Shown here one piece after another: positions 1 to 10,028 of a DNA stretch of 64,000 bases. The notes under the pieces are model-generated. The model was given only the letters and a program-made list of their open reading frames with translations, had not been told where the DNA came from and did not search any database. The stretch is from Phreatobacter stygius (GTDB lineage Bacteria > Pseudomonadota > Alphaproteobacteria > Rhizobiales > Phreatobacteraceae). The DNA is taken from NCBI RefSeq assembly GCF_005144885.1, contig NZ_CP039690.1, positions 3,361,001 to 3,425,000 on the forward strand. The letters run 5' to 3'. Each line of letters starts with the position of its first letter. Position 1 is the first letter of the stretch. The position numbers were made by a program, and so were the translations under genes.

Positions 1-775
1 GGTCGCTGATGTCGTAGTCGATCAGCCGCTCGGTGCCGACAATGCCGCCGATATTGCGGTTCGACCAGGAGAAGTGGAAGCCTTCATTGGCGATCACGCC
101 CATGCCCATGCCGAGCACCCAGGGGCTGGCGGCCTGCAGCACGGTGGTGCCGGTGTCGCTCGACGCCTTCACCCGGGGGTCGATCAGGATGGTCGAGAGC
201 GAGCCGGAATCGGCGCGATAGGCAACCGCCGCCTCGCGCGTGGTCGAGGGCAGGTCGGCATAAACGAAACCGCGGCGCGCCTCGCAATAGGGCTCGATGG
301 CCGCCAGGATCGGATTCTTGGCATCGCCCAGGCGATGCGCGGTGAACGAGCCGAAGGTGAAATGGTTGGGCGTCAGGCCGGTCTCGACCTTGGCCTTCTT
401 GAAAGCGTGCCAGCCGGTAAAGGCGCTGGCATTGCCGACCATGTTGGCAATGGTCTCCTCGAGCTTGGTCGCGGCATTGGCGTTGGTGCTCTCGGCGGTG
501 CGGACCGCGACGATGCGCGCCTGGCCGCCGGAGGCGACCCGGATGGCGTTGATCTTGATCGCCAGGTCCGAACCCGGCGTCAGCGCGGCGATCTTGGCGT
601 CGTCGGCATCGTCATTGATCAGCCCGACCGGCTTGTTCAGCTCCCAGATCGGGCTGACGGTCGCGGCATCGATCCCCATGACGCCAATGACGTCGCGATC
701 CGGCACGCGCAACAGCGGCTGGTCGTCGTTCAACCTGATAATGCGTGTGCCGTGGTGGCGCGGAAGCTCGGTCAT
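1..775 (-). CDS. Phage tail sheath protein, 3' part missing
   Basis: This is the N-terminal 258 residues of a contractile tail sheath protein; the rest lies past the left edge. The start MTELPRHHGTRIIRLND and the following RDVIGVMGIDA match the N-terminus of P2 FI-type sheath subunits (HHGTRV...VIGLVGTA). Further in, a G-S-D-L-A-I stretch and the turn WVLGMGMGVIANEGFHFSWS are typical of the family. In the virion it would polymerise around the tail tube and contract on infection. It follows the fibre and radical SAM genes after a hairpin and a dyad element, so it probably begins a separate late transcript. Confidence 0.85.
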   Translation of the reverse strand, partial: MTELPRHHGTRIIRLNDDQPLLRVPDRDVIGVMGIDAATVSPIWELNKPVGLINDDADDAKIAALTPGSDLAIKINAIRVASGGQARIVAVRTAESTNANAATKLEETIANMVGNASAFTGWHAFKKAKVETGLTPNHFTFGSFTAHRLGDAKNPILAAIEPYCEARRGFVYADLPSTTREAAVAYRADSGSLSTILIDPRVKASSDTGTTVLQAASPWVLGMGMGVIANEGFHFSWSNRNIGGIVGTERLIDYDISD

Positions 776-1035: not shown

Positions 1036-2346
1036 TCAGGCGTATTGCGGCCTGAGCGCGGGGCCGTCGAGCGACACGACGCGCGTGCCGGTGAGCAACT
1101 GCACGGCGACGATGAGGAAGGCCATGTTATAGGCGAATTCGGCATTGCAGGACGACACCCAGCCGTCACCGGTCTGATACATGCAGGCGCCTTGGCAGAG
1201 CTGCAGCACCGGGCAGGTCGGACACTCCTTGCGGGCCGACCAGCGCCAGGAGGTATTGAGCCTGACCTTGTCCATCGCCATGACATGGCCGATGCGATGC
1301 GGCCCCTTGGTCGAGACGTTCTGGCAGGTGCCGACATTGCCGAGCAGGTCGACGGCGAGCTGGTCTTCCCGATCCATTCCGCATTTCTGCCCGAGCACCG
1401 ACGAGGGGCGCTGCCGAAGGATAGAGTTCATGCAATCCCTGACCTTGCGCTGAAAGGCCGGGACCTTGGTGAGCGCGCCCGTCATGACGCCGTCCACGAC
1501 ACGGCTTGTCAGCTCGGCGAGCTGCGCCGGAGAGAACCTCGAGGTCGGGTCGCCTTCGTTGTACTCGTGGACGACCCCCTCGAAGCTCACCACAAGCTCG
1601 GGCCGGTCCAAACGCTTGCGCAGCCACGTCGTGACAGCGACAGGGTCGCTCGACACGGGCGTGAGCACGGCGTTGATGGACAGGCGATGGCCGAACGTGT
1701 CTGCCGCATAGCGCCACAGGTCCAGGACTTCGGGATCGTCCAGTGGGTCGGGACCACGGATGCCCTGACCGGGGCCATCATGGGAGATCGCGAAGTGGAA
1801 CCCCCATTCCCGCATCCGGTCCAGGCGCTCGCGCGTCATCAGCGGCTTGTCGCCCTCGCGAGACCCGTTCGTAACCGTGCCGAATTCTGCTTGCGGGAAC
1901 CGCGCCCTGAGAGCCGGCGCAAGAACTTCGATCTTGTGCCAATACAACAGCGGTTCGCCGCCCCAGAATTCGATGCGGGTCAGGCTCGAAGGATCGAGCC
2001 AGCGGTCGAGCTGCGCGAGGAAGATTTCGGCGTCGCGGGTGGAGGTCTTCTCGGCTGTCCCTTTCTGCTGCCCCTGAAGGCAGTAGGAGCAGCCATAGTT
2101 GCAGCCAAGACCGAGCTGGATTTTCAAGCGGCGCGGGGCTGCGCTCTTGCGGCCGGGCTCATCCGGCGTCAGCGGGCCGAGCGGCACGGGCCACGCGCCG
2201 GGCGGGGAGACGCCGGACATCGTGTGGATCGGCGACCCCGGTTGCACGACAAGGTCCCCGCGCTCGTCCGTCAGGCGGGACGTGTGCTGGTCGTAGCCGA
2301 ACGTCCGCTGGCGACCGGCCTTGTCCATGGCATGAATTGAAAACAT
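1036..2346 (-). CDS. Radical SAM/SPASM peptide-modifying enzyme
   Basis: The 436-residue protein has the radical SAM cluster motif CNYGCSYC (Cys82, 86, 89) and GGEP at 129-132, the SAM-binding motif. The C-terminal third carries seven further cysteines (322, 341, 375, 378, 384, 388, 400) in the SPASM pattern CxxCx5CxxxC, which holds auxiliary 4Fe-4S clusters. SPASM enzymes usually modify ribosomally made peptides or active-site residues, for example by thioether bonds. The ATG shares its A with the TGA of the preceding gene (TGATG), so translation is coupled. A longer in-frame reading exists upstream, but it would run deep inside the neighbour. The best local substrate is the Cys-tailed 92-residue protein at 2909-3187; the reaction itself is unknown. 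Confidence 0.88.
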   Translation of the reverse strand: MFSIHAMDKAGRQRTFGYDQHTSRLTDERGDLVVQPGSPIHTMSGVSPPGAWPVPLGPLTPDEPGRKSAAPRRLKIQLGLGCNYGCSYCLQGQQKGTAEKTSTRDAEIFLAQLDRWLDPSSLTRIEFWGGEPLLYWHKIEVLAPALRARFPQAEFGTVTNGSREGDKPLMTRERLDRMREWGFHFAISHDGPGQGIRGPDPLDDPEVLDLWRYAADTFGHRLSINAVLTPVSSDPVAVTTWLRKRLDRPELVVSFEGVVHEYNEGDPTSRFSPAQLAELTSRVVDGVMTGALTKVPAFQRKVRDCMNSILRQRPSSVLGQKCGMDREDQLAVDLLGNVGTCQNVSTKGPHRIGHVMAMDKVRLNTSWRWSARKECPTCPVLQLCQGACMYQTGDGWVSSCNAEFAYNMAFLIVAVQLLTGTRVVSLDGPALRPQYA

Positions 2347-2912
2347 CAGGCGGGCCTGTCGTAGCGGATGACGGAACGGTCCATGGGCATCGGCGGCGAC
2401 GCCAGATAGGTTCGTCGGTCTGGTTGCAGCCACGGCACGCTCGGATCGTGCGTCGGCGGCGGGAGGTTCGGGAACGACACGCCTGCCGGAATGATCCCCG
2501 TCACAGTGCGGCGATAGGTGCCGAGCCTGCCGGCGGGATTGTCGGCGGCTGTCGCCTGGTCGAAGCCAGCCGGAGCGGTTGCCCAGCACGCCCGGCAGTC
2601 CAGGCCTTCAAAATGGGTCACGGCGTGGTCAACGAGCGCGACCGCCGCGGCAGGACCAGCGAAGACGGCGGCAAGCTCCGATTGGATCAACCACTCGCGG
2701 CTCCCTGGCTCGTTCACGCACACGATCATGGCGTCGCGTATCGCGTCGTCAAAGAACAATGCATGCGTCGTGACCGTCCAGAGGCGGCGCAACAACGCCG
2801 ACTGCATCGCTATCTTATGGGACAGCGACATTTCGAGGCCGTTCGCGTGGATCATGCGGTCGCCGAATTCAACGGTCGATCGGGCGTCGTCTGTCGTGAG
2901 CTTGCGTATCAT
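2346..2912 (-). CDS. Unknown 188-residue protein of the radical SAM cassette
   Basis: I do not recognise a family. The ATG overlaps the stop of the 92-residue gene as ATGA, and its own stop overlaps the radical SAM start, so it is translated between presumed substrate and enzyme. The first 100 residues look helical; the tail is rich in proline and aromatic residues (positions 143-188). It has three cysteines, two of them in CRAC at 106-109. A TTG two codons earlier (2918) is an alternative start. Position suggests a partner, chaperone or leader-binding component of the modification system, but nothing in the sequence proves that. Base composition is less GC-rich than the baseplate genes. Confidence 0.7.
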   Translation of the reverse strand: MIRKLTTDDARSTVEFGDRMIHANGLEMSLSHKIAMQSALLRRLWTVTTHALFFDDAIRDAMIVCVNEPGSREWLIQSELAAVFAGPAAAVALVDHAVTHFEGLDCRACWATAPAGFDQATAADNPAGRLGTYRRTVTGIIPAGVSFPNLPPPTHDPSVPWLQPDRRTYLASPPMPMDRSVIRYDRPA

Positions 2913-3187
2913 GCGCAATCACCACAGGCACAGGCGCTGAGCGCGAATGTCACCTTCCCGTAGAAGTCGGCGATCGATATCGTCCCGGTCGGGAACTGTT
3001 CCGGAGCGTTATCGAGGCCATGAATTCGCCCACGGTACCAGTTCAAATCGTAGGTGCCGTATTTTGGGTATGGGCCGGCGTCGAGATTGGTGACAGCATT
3101 CCGATTGCCCCACCCGGAATTGTACGGGGGGTCCGTGTGGTTCCTGATGGTGTAGAGGCTCAGCTCTCCGCTGGTGGGCAATGGCAT
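2909..3187 (-). CDS. Small fibre-associated protein with CACGDCA tail; candidate substrate
   Basis: The 92-residue protein starts MPLPTSGELSL and has TGTISIADFYGK at 67-78. Both elements occur in many small phage tail-associated proteins (pattern PLPTSG...I(S)..DFYGK). The odd part is the end: after FALSA come the only three cysteines of the protein, Cys86, 88 and 91, in CACGDCA at the extreme C-terminus. A cysteine-only tail followed by a coupled unknown gene and a radical SAM/SPASM gene suggests that the tail is modified after translation. It begins 2 bases after the stop of the 124-residue tail gene and overlaps the next gene as ATGA. A plain structural role with metal-binding cysteines is the alternative. 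Confidence 0.75.
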   Translation of the reverse strand: MPLPTSGELSLYTIRNHTDPPYNSGWGNRNAVTNLDAGPYPKYGTYDLNWYRGRIHGLDNAPEQFPTGTISIADFYGKVTFALSACACGDCA

Positions 3188-3189
3188 GT

Positions 3190-3564
3190 TCAGCCCCCCT
3201 TGGTATTCACGGAGGCGAGAACGAACATCTGGTCGAGGACGGACGGGACCTGCGGGACAGCTGCGAGCATCGGGACCTTTAGTGCGTATTCGGCCATCAA
3301 GATGCGCGCGACGGTCTCATCGCACATGGTGTTGCGCGCGAATTGCAACACGGTCGGCCGGTCGAGCTGATCGAACGGGGTGAAGGAGGCCTGATCCGGC
3401 GGGGCGAGGAAGGTGGTTCCCTCGCGCTGCACGAAATAGGCGCTCGTGCCGTACGAGCAGCGCCACGTGACGGCTTCAACGACATTGGTCAGGCCGTTGA
3501 GTTCCGGGGCGACATGAACGACGGTCGCAGTCCAGGAGAATTCAGGGGCTGGGGCGGTGGTCAT
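3190..3564 (-). CDS. Small phage tail-region protein (124 aa)
   Basis: The protein reads FSWTATVVHVAPELNGLTNVV near the start, a pattern I associate with small conserved phage proteins encoded beside tail fibres (strand-rich, W-T-V then G-L-T-D-V-V, later an F-x-P-F-D and a helical C-terminus). Function is not established; a fibre-assembly or structural role is likely from position. The ATG overlaps the tail-fibre stop as ATGA, fixing the start. Base composition begins to drop in this gene relative to the baseplate genes. Confidence 0.65.
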   Translation of the reverse strand: MTTAPAPEFSWTATVVHVAPELNGLTNVVEAVTWRCSYGTSAYFVQREGTTFLAPPDQASFTPFDQLDRPTVLQFARNTMCDETVARILMAEYALKVPMLAAVPQVPSVLDQMFVLASVNTKGG

Positions 3565-6200
3565 GCGACCTCCTTCGCGAGGTTGGCTTTGAGGCTGTCG
3601 ACTTCGGCCATCAGGCCCTTCACGGCCTGGACGAGTACGGGGATGAGCTTTTCCGGGCGCACGGTCAGATAGGGATCGGCCGGATCGACGGGGACGTCGG
3701 TGCGCGGCGTCTTGTGTTCGTCCTGGTACTGGAGGAGTTGCTCGGCGACGCCCTGGGGCAGCACACTGGCCACCTCCTGGGCGATGAAGCCGACCTGGTC
3801 CTGCCCGGCCTCGGCCTCGCCGACAAGTTGGCGGCCGATGCCGTTCCAGCGGAACCGGACGCCTCGGATGCCCTCGATGATGGCGCGCCAGTCGTCGATC
3901 GGACGGATCTCGTCCTTCAGCCGCCGGTCCGAATAATAGGCGACCACATTGCCGGTGGCGTAGAAGTTGCCCGCGCCCTCCAGGAAGGCTCGCACCGCGC
4001 CGGCACCGTCCTGCCATTGATGGAACCAGCTTCCATAGCCTCGCCATGTCGAGGGGCCGGCGTTCTCGAAATGCATCCGGGGGTGGCCGTCATTGGTGTT
4101 TTTCCAGGCGCTGACCTGGTTGTTGAAGTAGCCCGCCGGGGTGAAATTGCCGCTGTGCCAGAGCGTGTAGGCGAGCGCGCCGGTCGACCAGCCGCCGACC
4201 TTCCACTGGTTGTCACTGTCGAGGCCGAAATAGGCGGCGAAGGCATTCGGGCGGTGGAACCCGATCATCGCCGCGGAGGTGGCGCCGCTGCTGCGGATCT
4301 CGAGCGAGCCGAGGCCGCCCGTGGCGGTGGCCATGGCCGTGCTATTGGTGTCGATTGCCGACAGGCGGCCGTTCAGGGTCACCGCGCCCGACAGGGCGGC
4401 GCCGGCCTTGACGGCATAACGGGCATCGCCCCAGGCGGTGTCGAAGGCCAGGCTGCGGCTCGCCGCAAGGCTGCCGCCGCCGGAAAGCCCGGTGCCGGCG
4501 GCGATGGCGGTGGTGCCGAGCGCGTAGCGCGCATCGCCCCAGGCGGAGTCGAAGGCGAGCGTGCGGCTGGCGGCGAGCGTGCCGCCGCCGGTGAGCCCGG
4601 TGCCGGCCGTGATGGTGGTGGCGCCGAGCGCGAAGGCCGCGGCATGCTGGCCGTCGATGAGGTCGGCATCGAGGCCGGAGCCCGCGCCGTCGACGGTCTG
4701 CAGCTTGGCCATGACGTCGGCCGCGCTATAGCTCGCGGCCGGCAGCTTGGTGGCGAGCGAGGTGGTGATGGTGGTGGCGAAATTGGGATCATTGCCCAGC
4801 GCATTGGCGAATTCGACGAATGTGTCGAGCGCCGCCGGCGCAGCGCCGGTGATCGCGGCGATCTTGGCGTCGAGCGCCTGTTTCAGCCCGGCCGGATCGA
4901 CCGCCAGGGTGGTGGAGGTGCCGGCTGTCGCCTCCGCGCCGGTGGCCAGCCTGACGATGCCGGCGACCGTCTGGCTGGCCGAGGGTGCCAGTGCCGCGAT
5001 CGCCTCGGCGGTCCTGAGCGGCGTCATGGCGGTGGCATTGTCGCTGCCGGCGATCGCCTGGGCCTGCGACGCGGCGGTCACGGTGATCGCGCGGTCGGCC
5101 GTCAGGTCGCCGCCGCCGGACGCAAGCCCGCTGCCGGTGACCGTGCGGGTGGTGAGCGGCCGGGCGGCGAGCCCGGTCCCGATCGCGTTGAGGATCGCCT
5201 GGACCGTGGTGCCGCTCAGGCCCGCCGGGGCCGTGCCGGTCACCAGGGCCGCGCTGTAATCGCCGGCGGTCGGGTTGACGCCGCCGACCCGGCCGTTGAA
5301 CGAGGTCACCGAGGTGTCGGAGGCGGCCACCAGCGAGCGCCAGGTGACCGGCGCGATACTGGCGACGAAGTCGATATAATAGGTCGCCGGCGGGCCCGGC
5401 ACCTCATGAAAATACCAGTTGCCGACGGCGAGCGGCGTGCCGTCGGTCTGGGTCGCGGGCGGGCTCGTATGCACGCCGAGGAAACCGCGCATATGGGCGA
5501 TGGCCGCCGCCGCCGCCGTTTCGGTCTGGCCTTGGGCGATCTGCGCCTGGTTGCGCGAGCTGTCGGCTGCCGCCGCCTCGGCGAGCGCGACGTCGCGCGC
5601 CGCCAGCGCATCGGCCGAGGATTGCGCCGCCTCGTCGCGCCGGCTGAGCGCCTGGACCGCGGCGGCTTCCGCCGCCACCCGGTGGCCATGGACCGCGGGG
5701 ATCGCCGCGGCATTGTCGGTGGCCGAGGCCGCCGAAATGGTCCAGCCCGCGTGGAAGCCGGAACCGGCGGCCCGGTCGACATCGATGGTCAGTTCGCCTG
5801 ATGTCGGGTCATAGGCGACCAGGCTGCCGAGCATGGCTTCGGTCGGCTCGCCGGTCTTGATCATGGCGAGATAGGCGGCGGGTGCGAATTGCCGGCGATG
5901 GTCCGCGTCGACGATGAACACCTTGCGGTCGACGCTGACCTCGATCTGGCTCGCCGACGAGGTCGTCAGGATCGCGCCGAGCGAGGCATAGTCGTTCAGG
6001 TTCTCGACGATCGGCGCCATGATCTCGTCGAGGCGGGCAAGCCCCGCCGAGACGAATTTTGCTTTCTCCTGGTCGAACGAGACGGCCTTGTCCTCGATCG
6101 CAGCGGTGCGCACATCCAGATCCTTGAGGATCGGGTTGACGGTTGCGGCATTGGCGAAGTCGCCGTCCTTGATACGGTATTTTTCGAAGCGGATCGGCAT
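3561..6200 (-). CDS. Tail fibre protein with C-terminal S74 chaperone domain
   Basis: The 879-residue protein is a receptor-binding fibre. Residues 1-170 are a proximal part with a GS-rich linker; 180-250 are Ala-rich and probably coiled coil. The middle contains near-identical modules built on AGTGLTGGGTLAASRTLAFD and WGDARYA, as in trimeric phage fibres. The last 110 residues start YSDRRLKDEI and match the Peptidase_S74 intramolecular chaperone, which trims itself off after trimerisation using that Ser-Asp pair; a coiled coil closes the protein. The ATG at 6200 was chosen because the reading frame further upstream overlaps the neighbouring 70-residue gene. It is transcribed with the baseplate genes. 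Confidence 0.88.
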   Translation of the reverse strand: MPIRFEKYRIKDGDFANAATVNPILKDLDVRTAAIEDKAVSFDQEKAKFVSAGLARLDEIMAPIVENLNDYASLGAILTTSSASQIEVSVDRKVFIVDADHRRQFAPAAYLAMIKTGEPTEAMLGSLVAYDPTSGELTIDVDRAAGSGFHAGWTISAASATDNAAAIPAVHGHRVAAEAAAVQALSRRDEAAQSSADALAARDVALAEAAAADSSRNQAQIAQGQTETAAAAAIAHMRGFLGVHTSPPATQTDGTPLAVGNWYFHEVPGPPATYYIDFVASIAPVTWRSLVAASDTSVTSFNGRVGGVNPTAGDYSAALVTGTAPAGLSGTTVQAILNAIGTGLAARPLTTRTVTGSGLASGGGDLTADRAITVTAASQAQAIAGSDNATAMTPLRTAEAIAALAPSASQTVAGIVRLATGAEATAGTSTTLAVDPAGLKQALDAKIAAITGAAPAALDTFVEFANALGNDPNFATTITTSLATKLPAASYSAADVMAKLQTVDGAGSGLDADLIDGQHAAAFALGATTITAGTGLTGGGTLAASRTLAFDSAWGDARYALGTTAIAAGTGLSGGGSLAASRSLAFDTAWGDARYAVKAGAALSGAVTLNGRLSAIDTNSTAMATATGGLGSLEIRSSGATSAAMIGFHRPNAFAAYFGLDSDNQWKVGGWSTGALAYTLWHSGNFTPAGYFNNQVSAWKNTNDGHPRMHFENAGPSTWRGYGSWFHQWQDGAGAVRAFLEGAGNFYATGNVVAYYSDRRLKDEIRPIDDWRAIIEGIRGVRFRWNGIGRQLVGEAEAGQDQVGFIAQEVASVLPQGVAEQLLQYQDEHKTPRTDVPVDPADPYLTVRPEKLIPVLVQAVKGLMAEVDSLKANLAKEVA

Positions 6201-6240
6201 CGGGCATGGACCTCGGCGATGAGGAGAGGGGGCTGGTCGG

Positions 6241-6453
6241 TCAGGCGGCGGCCGCGGCCACGGGATAGGCCGAGGCGATGTCGTCGCCGATCGCCTCCTT
6301 GACCCTTTGCTTGACCGTGTAGGTCTTGCCCGGGCGGAACACGACGCCGGCGACCTTGGGTGTGACGCGGGCGACCGTGATGTCGAAGAAGACGTCTTTG
6401 GTCGCGGCCGGCAGGCTTTCGGCCGGGGTGTCGGGGCTGGGTTTCTTGGCCAT
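6241..6453 (-). CDS. Small phage protein (70 aa), unknown
   Basis: A short basic protein, MAKKPSPDTPAESLP onward, with a core DVFFDITVARVTPKVAGVVF and a motif RPGKTYTVKQRV, ending in an Ala run. It fills the gap between two fibre/baseplate genes in the same direction. I do not recognise a family; the compact strand pattern resembles small accessory proteins of the fibre region. GC-rich third codon positions support it being coding. Confidence 0.6.
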   Translation of the reverse strand: MAKKPSPDTPAESLPAATKDVFFDITVARVTPKVAGVVFRPGKTYTVKQRVKEAIGDDIASAYPVAAAAA

Positions 6454-6493
6454 GGGAGGCGCTCCGTTCGGATGTCTGAAGGGGCTTGGAGGC

Positions 6494-8761
6494 TCAGAAG
6501 GCAATGTCGACGCGGGTCGACACGAGATAGGTGTCGAGCGCCGTCGAGGTGGTGCCGCTCTGCTCGATCTTGTAGGCCGAGACCGGCGCCGTGGTGTTGA
6601 AGGTGTAGGTCCGGATGATCGCCTTCGGATCTTCGGTCGGCGTCGTATCGGTGACGTCGGGCAGCTCGATCGTGGCAAAGCCCGGCGCGCCGCACAGAAG
6701 CCGCATGGCATGGGCGTGGCGGGTGCCGCTCCAGTTCTCCAGACGCACGGTCACCTGCACTTGGGATGTCGGCACCGGCAGGGTGCGCGGCGTCGAGATG
6801 TGCTTGAACGTGGTGCGCGGCCGGGACAGCCTGACGCGCGACCCCGACAGCCGGATGCCCGGCGCGACATCGGTGGTGCCGATCAGCACCGCGCGGAACT
6901 GCAGCAAGGGCGGCAGGCCGATCAGCTTGGCCGGCGTCAGGCTGTCGATCGGTTCCCAGCCGGAGCCGGATTTCTGCACCTCGAAATAGCACTGGCAGGA
7001 GCGCGGCACGACCATGCCGGCCAGGATGTCGAGCGAGGAAATGCCGCCATTGAGCTGCAGCGGCTGCAGTTCCACCACGGTGCGCACCCGTTCGAACCTG
7101 GCGAATTCCACCGAGAACACCAGGTCCTTGGTGAAGTCGCCTTCGAACCAGGCGCCATCGGTCGAATAGAACAATGTCCCCTGGGCATATTCGCCCCCCG
7201 AGGCTACCGCCGCATAGTGGTCGGCCGCCGTCACCAGCACGATGGCGTAACGGCCGCCGGCCGACAGGAAGGTCGGCGCGAGCGGGAACAGCGTCATGCC
7301 GTCCTGCGGGAACAGTCTCAGGTCGGCGCGCTGCACGGTCACCTGGGCGACCGTCTTGGAGAGATCAGGCGCGCCGAGATAGGTCTCGCAGACGGCAAGC
7401 GTGATGGCGCCGGAGCCGGCGAGCCGGGTCAGGCCGACGCGCAGGCCGGTCAGCCAGCCGTCCTGGGAGTTCAGGAAGGTCTGCGCCACCGTCTGGCCGT
7501 TGACCACCGTTGTGGTGGTCAGGACGTCCCAATAGGGCTCCTCGTAGCTGTCGATCCAATATTGCTGCAGGCGGATGAAATTATGCGCGCCGCGCAGCTC
7601 CTCCGGATTGTTGATGATGAAGCTCTCGCCGTTCAGCGTGAAGACGTTGCTGGTCGGGTCGATCTGGCCTTGCGCCCAATAGTTGCGGGCATTGGTGCAG
7701 ACCGAGAACTCCTGGCCGTAACGCACCCGTTGCCGGCTCATGGTCTTCTGGACGATGGTCTGGGCCTGGCTCTGGTACTGCGACAGGCGCAGCTCGCCGG
7801 CATAAGACGCGACCGTGATGCGCGGGATCGAGGCATGCGCCGGCAGCAGCACGCCGTTCTTCACCACCTGGGCCGGATCCAGCGCATTGAACACGCTGAT
7901 CTGGCTGTCGCCCTGGTTCTCCGGCCCGAAACGCACGCCTTCCTCGACCTTGGCCAGGAGGTCGAGATTGGTGACGTCGGTTTCCGCCGAGGTCAGGTAG
8001 AAATCGGCGGCATAGCTCGAATAGTCGTCGGGCAGGCCGACGACATCCTTCAGCCGGGCGATGTCGGAGGCCATTTCGATGATGGCGCGGGTCGAGGCGC
8101 TGCCCTTCAGCCGGTTGGCCAGCGCCGAGATGTCGGAACCGATGGTCTGGATCCGCGGTTCGGCGGACGCCTGGAATTTCTCCAGCAGGCCGACGCGGCT
8201 GTCGACCTCGGTCAGCCGCGGCATGCGGTTGCCGGCGATCATGGTGATGCCGCCATCGGCAATGCCGGTCGGGGTCAACAGGATGTCGCAGACCGCCAGG
8301 AACTGGGCGCCGAGCGGCGAGCGCTGCGGGTCGGCGCTTTCAAGGCCCGCGATCAGGCCGACATTGGCGACCCGGTCGTGGCGCATCGACACGGTCTGCG
8401 ACTGGGTCACGTCATTGTCGACGTCGATCAGGTAGGAGCGCGGCTGGATGTCGACCTCCGCCGTGCCTTGCCAGATATAGACGGTGACCAGGCGCTTGGC
8501 GGCGGCGGGCAGGAAATCGAACAGCGATTTCTGCACCGTCGCGGCCGCCGCATAGACTTCGCCGGACGCGAACAGCCGGCCCGGCGCGACATTGATCTCG
8601 GTCGCCGAGACGCTGGTCACCTCGAAGCCGGAAAAGCGCTTCTGGGTCGAAATGGTATCGGCGACCAGGTGGTCCAGGGTTGCCTCGACATGGCCCTGGA
8701 GATTGTTGAAGTCGTTCTCGACGACCTCCTGGCGGGCACGAAACGTCACTTTGCTCAGCAT
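6494..8761 (-). CDS. Large tail/baseplate appendage protein (755 aa)
   Basis: The start MLSKVTFRARQEVVENDFNN and the long beta-rich body (for example QPRSYLIDVDNDVTQSQTVS) resemble large phage structural proteins of the DUF4815 type, found between baseplate and fibre genes. A probable helical linker lies near residues 195-245. It likely connects the baseplate rim to the S74 fibre. It starts one base after the gpI stop, so it belongs to the same transcript. The family name is from memory of the N-terminal pattern; that it is a virion protein is much surer than its exact place. Confidence 0.65.
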   Translation of the reverse strand: MLSKVTFRARQEVVENDFNNLQGHVEATLDHLVADTISTQKRFSGFEVTSVSATEINVAPGRLFASGEVYAAAATVQKSLFDFLPAAAKRLVTVYIWQGTAEVDIQPRSYLIDVDNDVTQSQTVSMRHDRVANVGLIAGLESADPQRSPLGAQFLAVCDILLTPTGIADGGITMIAGNRMPRLTEVDSRVGLLEKFQASAEPRIQTIGSDISALANRLKGSASTRAIIEMASDIARLKDVVGLPDDYSSYAADFYLTSAETDVTNLDLLAKVEEGVRFGPENQGDSQISVFNALDPAQVVKNGVLLPAHASIPRITVASYAGELRLSQYQSQAQTIVQKTMSRQRVRYGQEFSVCTNARNYWAQGQIDPTSNVFTLNGESFIINNPEELRGAHNFIRLQQYWIDSYEEPYWDVLTTTTVVNGQTVAQTFLNSQDGWLTGLRVGLTRLAGSGAITLAVCETYLGAPDLSKTVAQVTVQRADLRLFPQDGMTLFPLAPTFLSAGGRYAIVLVTAADHYAAVASGGEYAQGTLFYSTDGAWFEGDFTKDLVFSVEFARFERVRTVVELQPLQLNGGISSLDILAGMVVPRSCQCYFEVQKSGSGWEPIDSLTPAKLIGLPPLLQFRAVLIGTTDVAPGIRLSGSRVRLSRPRTTFKHISTPRTLPVPTSQVQVTVRLENWSGTRHAHAMRLLCGAPGFATIELPDVTDTTPTEDPKAIIRTYTFNTTAPVSAYKIEQSGTTSTALDTYLVSTRVDIAF

Positions 8762-8762
8762 G

Positions 8763-10028
8763 TCAGCCTCTCACGGGTTGGCCAAATCGGAAGGCGCCGA
8801 AATAGAGGTCGCCGCCGAAGATCGGCGGGCGGTAGACCTCGGTATCGACGAGGATGGTGTCGCGCGCCGACTTGGCGGTGCGGATGGCGTCGAGTACGCG
8901 CGCGAGCTTGGTCTGGTCGGATCGGACGAGATAACCCTGGACATAACGGCCGAAGGTCCAGCGGTGCCGGCGGCCGAGCACCGCCACCGCCAGTTCCGCG
9001 GTGCGCGGCGCGATGCCGAGCCGGGCCTTGCCCATGAAGGCGATGGCGCCGGTCCTGGCGATGCTGCGGCGCGGGTCGTGCAGCCTGATGCTGTCATAGA
9101 TGGTCAGCGCCGCCCGGCTCGGCACCAGATAGCGGCCGGTCGGGATCACGCCCGAGAACAGGCTCTTGCCGCCGCGGCCGAGCTCGTGGACCGTCTCCGG
9201 CACGATCGAGACCGGGCTCAGGCCCTCGGTCGCCGAGGTCAGCCGGTCGTAACCGTCGAGCGAGGCGGCGGCAAAGGACACCGAGACGATGCGGCTCGCC
9301 TGCACCGGCTTGGTGAAATAGCGGGCGTAACGATGCCCGGCGCCGAGGAAATAGCCGCCGCGGCCGCGGCCGGGGATCAGGTAGCGTTCGGCGCCATGGA
9401 CCGGCTGGCCGGTGTCGGTCGCCACCGTCTCGATCTGCAGGGGCGTCACCGTGCCCTGGTCGTGCAGGCTGGCCCGCCGGCCGAACAGGAGCGGCGCCCG
9501 GCTCGGCAAGGGAAAGGCCGGGATGCGGTTGCCGGCATCCGACAGGAACGAGCGGATGCTTCCCATGAGCGGGCCGCAGATCAGCCGGCGCCCGGCCCGC
9601 TCGCGGTCGGAGCGGGTGCGGATGCGGATCTCCGGCAGGCGCTTCATGAACTCGAGCCGCTCGGCGAGCGTCAGGCCGGCGGAAACATAAAACTTGGCCG
9701 GCGGCACCACGGCGCGCACCAGTTCGCCGCCGGCGAGCTGGACATAGCGGCGGATGCCCTCGAGCGTGCCCTTTTGCCGGTGCAGCGCCAGCGACTGGGC
9801 GCAGACCCAGCGCTTGCGGTCGAGCGGCCAGTCCTCGTACCAGATATCGACCGACAGCGCCCAGGCGAGATAGGGCAGCAGCCGTTCCGGGCAGGTCCAG
9901 GGGTTCCACAGGGTGTCGATCGGGAAGGCGAGATCGAAGGCACGGCCCTTCAGGCTCGCCAGCGCGCGCTCGGGCGTGGTCGCATTGCGCGGCAGGAGAT
10001 GGTCGGCGAAGGCGAACCCGTCAGCCAT
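8763..10028 (-). CDS. Tail protein I (P2 gpI-like) with long C-terminal extension
   Basis: The first 150 residues carry the gpI signature: LLPRNATTPERALA, then LWNPWTCPERLLPYLAWALS and DIWYEDWP, followed by the RKGTLEGI-type helix (HRQKGTLEGIRRYV). P2 gpI sits in the baseplate wedge and contacts the fibre. P2 gpI is about 176 residues, whereas this one has 421; the extra 270 residues have repeated GR.....GRY and AGHRYARYF-like elements and no family I can name. The ATG lies 8 bases inside the gpJ gene, the same overlap style seen in P2-type tails. Confidence 0.85.
   Translation of the reverse strand: MADGFAFADHLLPRNATTPERALASLKGRAFDLAFPIDTLWNPWTCPERLLPYLAWALSVDIWYEDWPLDRKRWVCAQSLALHRQKGTLEGIRRYVQLAGGELVRAVVPPAKFYVSAGLTLAERLEFMKRLPEIRIRTRSDRERAGRRLICGPLMGSIRSFLSDAGNRIPAFPLPSRAPLLFGRRASLHDQGTVTPLQIETVATDTGQPVHGAERYLIPGRGRGGYFLGAGHRYARYFTKPVQASRIVSVSFAAASLDGYDRLTSATEGLSPVSIVPETVHELGRGGKSLFSGVIPTGRYLVPSRAALTIYDSIRLHDPRRSIARTGAIAFMGKARLGIAPRTAELAVAVLGRRHRWTFGRYVQGYLVRSDQTKLARVLDAIRTAKSARDTILVDTEVYRPPIFGGDLYFGAFRFGQPVRG

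Follow-up and report, generated by a model that had tools for sequence, protein, structure and literature searches.

The 64,000-nucleotide stretch of Phreatobacter stygius DNA analysed here (contig NZ_CP039690.1, positions 3,361,001 to 3,425,000; hereafter the window) contains three coupled genes on its minus strand, encoding a 92-residue protein with a C-terminal cysteine tail, a 188-residue protein and a radical S-adenosylmethionine (SAM) enzyme with a SPASM domain, in this order (Table 1). The relation of the enzyme to the Cys tail, in the window and in viral relatives, is the subject of this analysis. The start of the 188-residue open reading frame (ORF) overlaps the stop of the 92-residue ORF in ATGA, and the 188-residue ORF and the radical SAM ORF overlap in TGATG. 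These overlaps, from which a sequence-only reading of the window had deduced coupling, are present, and the 92-residue protein has no cysteines besides those in CACGDCA, as that reading had stated. The order on the minus strand is S74 fibre, DUF7936 protein, 92-residue protein, 188-residue protein, enzyme and sheath, with baseplate and tail genes upstream. Since a tail sheath gene is present, the tail is contractile, and so the earlier assignment of the context stands: the cassette lies in a contractile-tail prophage, with the sheath on one side and the S74 fibre, a tail protein and baseplate genes on the other. A search of the 7.35-Mb contig with the enzyme yields one match, and no other member of its family was found at E 1e-30 in 11 genomes of the same genus. 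A host metabolic gene trapped in a prophage is ruled out, because relatives of the enzyme occupy a similar operon place in phage records.

Table 1. Features of the cassette and its flanks, in window coordinates. The start of the S74 fibre ORF was picked inside a longer frame.
Feature	Position	Strand	Support
Radical SAM/SPASM enzyme, 436 residues, phrog_1802 family, proposed tail modifier	1036..2346	-	PF04055, TIGR04085, phrog_1802
188-residue partner, fold unassigned	2346..2912	-	Homologues in the nearest phages, directly preceding the enzyme gene
92-residue fibre-associated small protein, proposed substrate	2909..3187	-	L014 homologue; aligned Cys-tailed small proteins
Cys tail CACGDCA at the C-terminus, with three cysteines; relatives have longer tails	2912..2932	-	Sequence
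124-residue DUF7936 protein, between the fibre and the Cys-tailed protein	3190..3564	-	PF25590, 37.4 bits (cut-off 27)
Tail fibre with C-terminal Peptidase_S74	3561..6281	-	PF13884, 53.2 bits; PHROG tail-fibre matches
Tail sheath, truncated at the edge of the window, on the downstream side of the enzyme	2..775	-	phrog_23, E 1e-20

The enzyme has the cluster motif C82-x3-C86-x2-C89 and seven SPASM cysteines (C322, C341, C375, C378, C384, C388 and C400), and all ten are invariant in a 36-member alignment. The SPASM cysteines are spaced as C322-x18-C341, with G336-x4-C341, then C375-x2-C378-x5-C384-x3-C388, and C400. A seven-Cys arrangement is that of SPASM domains, in which the first spacing is usually 9–15 residues; that of the enzyme is longer. 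Scores above the cut-offs of Pfam Radical_SAM (PF04055; 40.5 bits, cut-off 29.5) and of the NCBIfam SPASM domain (TIGR04085; 33.1 bits, cut-off 27) place the enzyme in the radical SAM superfamily and among SPASM proteins, bearing out the motifs recognized from the sequence alone. It also belongs to PHROG 1802 (E 2e-50, residues 21–404 of 436 on profile positions 10–392 of 556), which the enzymes of the related loci L014 and L046 match likewise. The two best curated families are both peptide maturases, namely the C-rich maturases of TIGR04463 (47.3 bits, cut-off 525) and the PapB-type ranthipeptide maturases of NF047865 (46.9 bits, cut-off 340), and the enzyme is a member of neither; four other members of its own family score 59.9–79.5 bits with PapB, which is the first or second match of each. 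It also falls outside the anaerobic sulfatase-maturating enzymes (anSMEs; TIGR03942, 22.8 bits, cut-off 349.45). A radical SAM enzyme acting on DNA or a cofactor is not favoured by these family scores.

The best sequence match of the enzyme in the PDB is 8vpo, named just a radical SAM protein, followed by anSME and 5wgg. The AlphaFold model is confident (predicted local distance difference test (pLDDT) 92.9, predicted template modelling score (pTM) 0.91), and its first 70 residues form three strands and a short helix. In a Foldseek comparison of the model with the PDB, the first 14 places comprise 5why, 5wgg, anSME both alone and with peptide, and ChlB with leader or precursor; SuiB stands at rank 17. 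The CteB entries 5why and 5wgg are titled as thioether-forming sactipeptide biosynthesis. The nearest folds of the modelled enzyme are those of peptide or protein maturases. Template modelling scores of the top matches are about 0.53–0.59 on the query, indicating that the kinship is at the level of the fold and is not close.

In IMG/VR, a profile search matched 530 viral stretches that encode relatives, and the 80 best were retained; in GTDB genomes it matched 98, the weakest of them falling outside this family, and 78 loci were retained. Among 50,697 phage records, 14 have an enzyme match, three of them over more than 80% of its length (phage JWF twice and phage 2-1). At 160 bits or more there are 148 loci, some from contigs fetched twice, which reduce to 96 representative loci at 90% identity, and 85 of these have at least 3 kb upstream of the enzyme; L010–L013 did not enter the hidden Markov model search, and loci below 160 bits and L151 did not enter the counts. 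In L151, from Halomonas sulfidaeris, the enzyme is seen only in several disconnected pieces, and a Cys tail with a Hint-like domain directly after it lies nearby. In L144, a metagenome-assembled genome (MAG) of Sutterellaceae, five consecutive ORFs at 2628–9278 match the radical SAM profile, and a Cys tail was not found there.

A C.C.C pattern lies within 4.5 kb upstream of the enzyme on the same strand in 67 of the 85 loci, compared with 17 of 85 upstream on the other strand and, downstream, 7 of 69 on the same strand and 5 of 69 on the other. Some of the 17 other-strand matches seem to arise from the tail repeats themselves, read in reverse complement. When the motif must lie within 12 residues of the C-terminus, the upstream counts become 60 of 85 on the same strand and 5 of 85 on the other, and the downstream counts 2 of 62 and 1 of 62, respectively. 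A wider rule, which also accepts Hint, S74 and the motif of the window itself and covers the entire same-strand locus, is satisfied by 71 of the 85 loci, or by 70 of 84 without the window. Two of the loci missed by this rule, L068 and L133, have Cys-rich stretches that lie outside it.

The same association is seen from the side of the tail. At least 120 stretches in IMG/VR encode NCNCNCxC, and 80 of them were examined; the motif was judged to be an in-frame tail in 48 (in L196 it lies 56 residues from the end) and not in the other 32, which serve as controls. The enzyme profile matches in 42 of the 48 tail records and in one of the 32 controls (Fisher p 4.6e-15, with partly redundant records). 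In the six tail records lacking a match (L176, L223, L235, L240, L242 and L247), the contig continues for only 0.27 to 1.13 kb beyond the downstream end of the tail gene. Five of them have a sibling record with the same kind of tail, in which the enzyme match lies 1.2 to 1.8 kb away, past those contig ends, and no such sibling was found for L223. The one control with a match, L199, carries an NCNCNCNC stretch, classed as not a tail. A scan for FYG-x8-CACxC, the small-protein type of the window, gave 12 stretches, in which the enzyme accompanies all seven real tails and none of five chance matches in frames giving no tail. Since the enzyme had led to these seven records beforehand, they add completeness and not independence. 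The sequence-only reading had raised the question of whether Cys-tailed proteins co-occur with the enzyme, and the forward and reverse counts, together with the seven records of the window's small-protein type, answer it in the affirmative. The pairing of the Cys tail with the enzyme is real, reciprocal and widespread in the viral collection, and a chance run of cysteines is ruled out by the association tests.

Inspection of the loci shows upstream same-strand tails such as NCNCNCRC, NCNCACRC, CACACACACGK and NCNCNCNC, among others. In 83 tails from 73 representative loci, the residue between alternating cysteines is N at 173 of 371 positions, A at 54, D at 44 and K at 40, K coming mainly from two long CKCKCK tails, and the residue preceding the first tail cysteine is N in 65 of the 83. 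The proteins that carry the tail vary, including small proteins of less than 150 residues, FYG-type small proteins, long fibres and a collagen-repeat protein (L034). PHROG tail-protein matches were obtained for seven of nine Cys-tailed proteins tested, that of L046 being through its S74 part. A Hint-type start directly follows the tail in seven representative loci (JWF, 2-1, L034, L036, L038, L085 and L086), and Pfam gives Hint families in all four tested, two of them above the cut-off. In L046 and L079, the long CKCKCK tail is directly followed by Peptidase_S74, above the cut-off in both. Hint and S74 domains self-cleave at or near their first residue, and so the preceding Cys tail could become the C-terminus. 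On the enzyme tree, the carrier label changes 17 times without the 14 rows labelled 'none' and 29 times with them; these labels are rough and partly based on length only, with 'small' and 'long' split at 150 residues, and L034 (Hint) and L133 are labelled 'none', so that tailed carriers are undercounted. Sequence comparison thus indicates that the tail persists while the type of carrier changes. Phages JWF and 2-1 have an annotated lambda-J-type central fibre or hub together with the Cys tail and the enzyme; the order in JWF is central fibre J, a small protein, a Hint-domain fibre, a 240-residue protein and the enzyme. The pairing is not limited to the window, nor, apparently, to contractile tails.

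The nearest relative of the enzyme, 54% identical, is encoded at L014, where the gene order resembles that of the window and fibre-like proteins are followed by a 112-residue protein ending in DFYSTTPVIDACACACDCLCK, intervening genes, a homologue of the 188-residue protein and the enzyme. A homologue of the 92-residue protein stands at the same position in L014 (41% identity over 90 columns, two-sequence E 4e-15) and ends in ACACACDCLCK, and Cys-tailed small proteins of L016, L024 (two) and L032 also align with it. The label 'small phage tail family' given by the sequence-only reading has no backing in Pfam, and the one PHROG match is weak (E 0.071) and concerns a family without assigned function. 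The phage collection gave only five weak, chance-like matches to the 92-residue protein (E 2 to 8), and its own genome gave a second weak one (E 0.14) with one internal stop. Its sole viral hit, L010, looks spurious, being 20 residues within another protein, and the enzyme was not found in that record. The 188-residue protein has a homologue in L014 (two-sequence E 9e-9), matches no noteworthy Pfam, NCBIfam or PHROG family and has no match in the phage collection; its homologues in L014 and L016 match no Pfam or PHROG family. Homologues adjoin the enzyme in the nearest phages, with 21–25% identity. The predicted structure is poor (pLDDT 43); the order of helices and strands in this model appears GNAT-like, which is a lead only. 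The 188-residue protein is probably an accessory of the tail modification.

Modification of the tail is proposed, in line with the action of related enzymes on Cys-containing peptides. The cassette would be a virion-maturation module, in which the enzyme, produced from the coupled downstream gene, would modify the Cys tail of the 92-residue protein in the cytoplasm during assembly. On the comparative evidence, the Cys tail of a fibre-tip protein is taken, with a probability of about 0.78, to be what the enzyme modifies. The enzyme class suggests a SAM-dependent radical modification, in which Cys sulfur may be cross-linked to carbons of neighbouring residues to give thioethers that would survive the reducing cytoplasm; the chance that thioethers are the product is about even. 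In the excerpted text of PMC8326336, NxxcA is described as having a thioether from the beta carbon of Asn to the Cys three residues on, and freyrasin as having Cys joined to Asp. Every (NC)n tail holds the NxxC spacing, leading to the concrete hypothesis of tandem beta-thioethers. In the relatives, the tail would be the C-terminus either directly or after self-cleavage by Hint or S74, and it may be hydroxylated by neighbouring 2-oxoglutarate (2OG) oxygenases. More speculatively, the modified tip may stiffen or lock the fibre end or contact the receptor.

Several observations weigh against a modification of the tail by the enzyme. The tail of the window is short and imperfect, with three cysteines, and fails the C.C.C pattern; the window passes the wider rule solely through its own motif having been added to that rule, and its tail fits an NxxC-type spacing only through AxxC, with one CX3D. 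The C.C.C pattern was missed in 18 of the 85 loci, the window included, and the wider rule in 14, even though L145, whose tail lies downstream, was counted as a pass. In L120, L135, L143, L144 and L146 the enzyme is present and a tail was not found, which is unexplained, and the enzymes of L095, L096, L097, L098, L099, L100 and L142 are likewise without such a tail. Among the 42 tail records with the enzyme, a few matches are divergent (G014, E 2e-49; G011, E 2e-36; G007, E 4e-28) or partial (G033, half length; G045, 55 residues, E 9e-12). The reverse test covered N-type tails and a small A-type set, and its IMG/VR records are redundant, some being near copies. Viperin-like enzymes, whose substrates are not peptides, appear among the fold matches from rank 15. 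Moreover, a recognition domain was not seen in the enzyme model or in its Pfam listing, with no specific test made.

These points have to be considered together with explanations in which the enzyme acts otherwise. The Cys tail might be a knot, metal-binding or disulfide-bonded, at the tip of the fibre, as a thiol counterpart of the HxH iron needle of T4 gp37, with the enzyme acting on another product of the operon. CxC repeats resemble thiol metal sites, and the tails are highly Cys-rich, up to the long CKCKCK runs. Tail fibres with HxH iron motifs, those of T4 gp37 and of marine phages, are described in the excerpted text of PMC11705849. A knot of this kind, however, leaves unexplained why the tail is reciprocally linked with a peptide-maturase-type enzyme across carriers and enzyme clades, and it is considered improbable. 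The enzyme might instead oxidise tail cysteines to formylglycine in the manner of anSME, placing aldehydes and not thioethers on the fibre tip. Although anSME ranks high among both the fold and the PDB sequence matches and the deposited record of the JWF enzyme names it 'anaerobic sulfatase-maturating enzyme', the family score lies far below the cut-off, and the sulfatase-type motif CxPxR/CxAxR occurs in none of 86 tails of representative loci, so that formylglycine formation is about as doubtful as the knot.

A cofactor, nucleic-acid or host-peptide enzyme might also merely travel with the fibre region. According to the excerpted text of PMC7029224, host-recognition regions of marine myophages, with their tail fibres, differ by radical SAM-related cassettes, and that of PMC3322345 mentions other roles suggested earlier for phage radical SAM proteins, such as DNA protection by methylation. 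Such hitch-hiking is very improbable, given that the enzyme goes with the tail records while all controls but one are without it, and that the tail stays Cys-alternating as the carrier protein type changes. Modification of the Cys tail by the enzyme is therefore preferred over these alternatives.

The seven tail-less enzymes, which belong to Variovorax, Ramlibacter and one gammaproteobacterial MAG, form one clade in a tree whose root is not known. One kind of gene adjoins six of the seven, and the member tested, from L142, is a fusion of YcaO and nitroreductase. In L095, L097 and L099, an ORF of about 70 residues, counted from its likely start, lies just before the enzyme gene and has a similar C-terminal part in all three (SDCGCFISP, GDCGCAISP, SDCSAISP). 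These loci look like a bacterial cluster for a peptide natural product resembling ribosomally synthesized and post-translationally modified peptides (RiPPs), which supports peptide maturation as the activity of the enzyme family.

Other genes that may tailor the tail lie near the enzyme. Of the 96 representative loci, 33 share a nearby gene family, five of five tested members of which match the 2OG-Fe(II) oxygenases of PHROG 81 (E 0.0015 or less), two of the five being above the PF13759 cut-off. Eleven loci, partly overlapping the 33, share a gene whose tested member is above the PF13759 cut-off, and with a group whose tested member exceeds the PF13640 cut-off the union reaches 42 of 96 loci. 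It becomes 49 of 96 when groups that are 2OG-like by eye are included, whose tested members are below the cut-off (L016, L024 and L082) or have no score (L046). A second radical SAM gene is found in eleven loci (one member tested), and a gene whose tested member matches Trp_halogenase in five. L046, L068 and L079, which have long CKCKCK fibres, share a Trp_halogenase-type gene (tested in L068), and their neighbourhoods contain genes that are 2OG-like by eye, one of which, in L046, is without a Pfam match.

Two other radical SAM genes stand beside ORFs rich in CSGxC repeats in the Erwinia phages Huxley (L291, 7036–11210) and phiEaH2 (L294, 7003–11203). The repeats are C-terminal in these small ORFs, two of which, in Huxley, overlap annotated genes on the opposite strand. 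The longer Huxley enzyme has its best NCBIfam match in the CXXX-repeat maturase family, with 126.6 bits against a cut-off of 350. It is possible that these genes represent a second flavour of Cys-tailed phage proteins.

The modification proposed for the window may extend much further, and the balance tips slightly towards a widespread, unrecognised form of virion maturation that would produce a cross-linked, redox-stable Cys fibre tip. The enzyme would recognise the tail itself on many carriers, self-cleavage of Hint or S74 would expose it, and further tailoring would come from 2OG oxygenases, a second radical SAM enzyme or halogenase-like proteins. If so, many tailed phages would have receptor-contacting or structural tips that are enzyme-modified and not plain protein, and structure prediction from sequence only as well as synthetic reconstitution would fail at the part of the fibre that meets the host. 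Radical SAM peptide chemistry would then extend to virion assembly. The presence of many radical SAM and 2OG-oxygenase genes in the fibre regions of phages could also be explained, and protein engineering would gain enzymes able to modify a short C-terminal tag on a variety of protein scaffolds.

Among known systems, the thioether-forming RiPP maturases of the CteB, PapB and NxxcB types resemble the window enzyme in their radical SAM and SPASM build and in having Cys targets; the CteB entries top its fold list, and PapB is its first or second NCBIfam match. The window enzyme differs from them in lying far below the equivalog cut-offs and in being encoded in a phage fibre operon, and its proposed target is a tail-fibre C-terminus instead of a short, leader-bearing precursor. 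QhpD and anSME, which are similar to the window enzyme by sequence or fold match, act on Cys in a protein and not in a secreted peptide, as described in part in the excerpted text of PMC8326336. Their substrates are enzyme subunits and sulfatases, respectively, with another motif and operon, and the window enzyme scores below their cut-offs. Pelagimyophages resemble the present case in having radical SAM genes in a variable region that holds the fibres, and for these cassettes no substrate, tail motif or function is proposed in the excerpted text of PMC7029224. PHROG 1802, to which the window enzyme belongs and with which phage 2-1 is annotated, is entered as 'radical SAM domain-containing protein', naming neither function nor partner. 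No description of the enzyme/Cys-tail pairing was found in the titles and abstract starts listed from the open PMC library, which does not cover subscription papers and preprints, and this is weak evidence of novelty. The pairing of PHROG 1802 enzymes with Cys tails was recognised in the present analysis. The HxH iron tips of the T4 gp37 type likewise have alternating ligand-type residues at the fibre tip; in the excerpted text of PMC11705849 they involve histidine and iron with no enzyme mentioned, whereas the tips described here have cysteine and a dedicated radical SAM enzyme.

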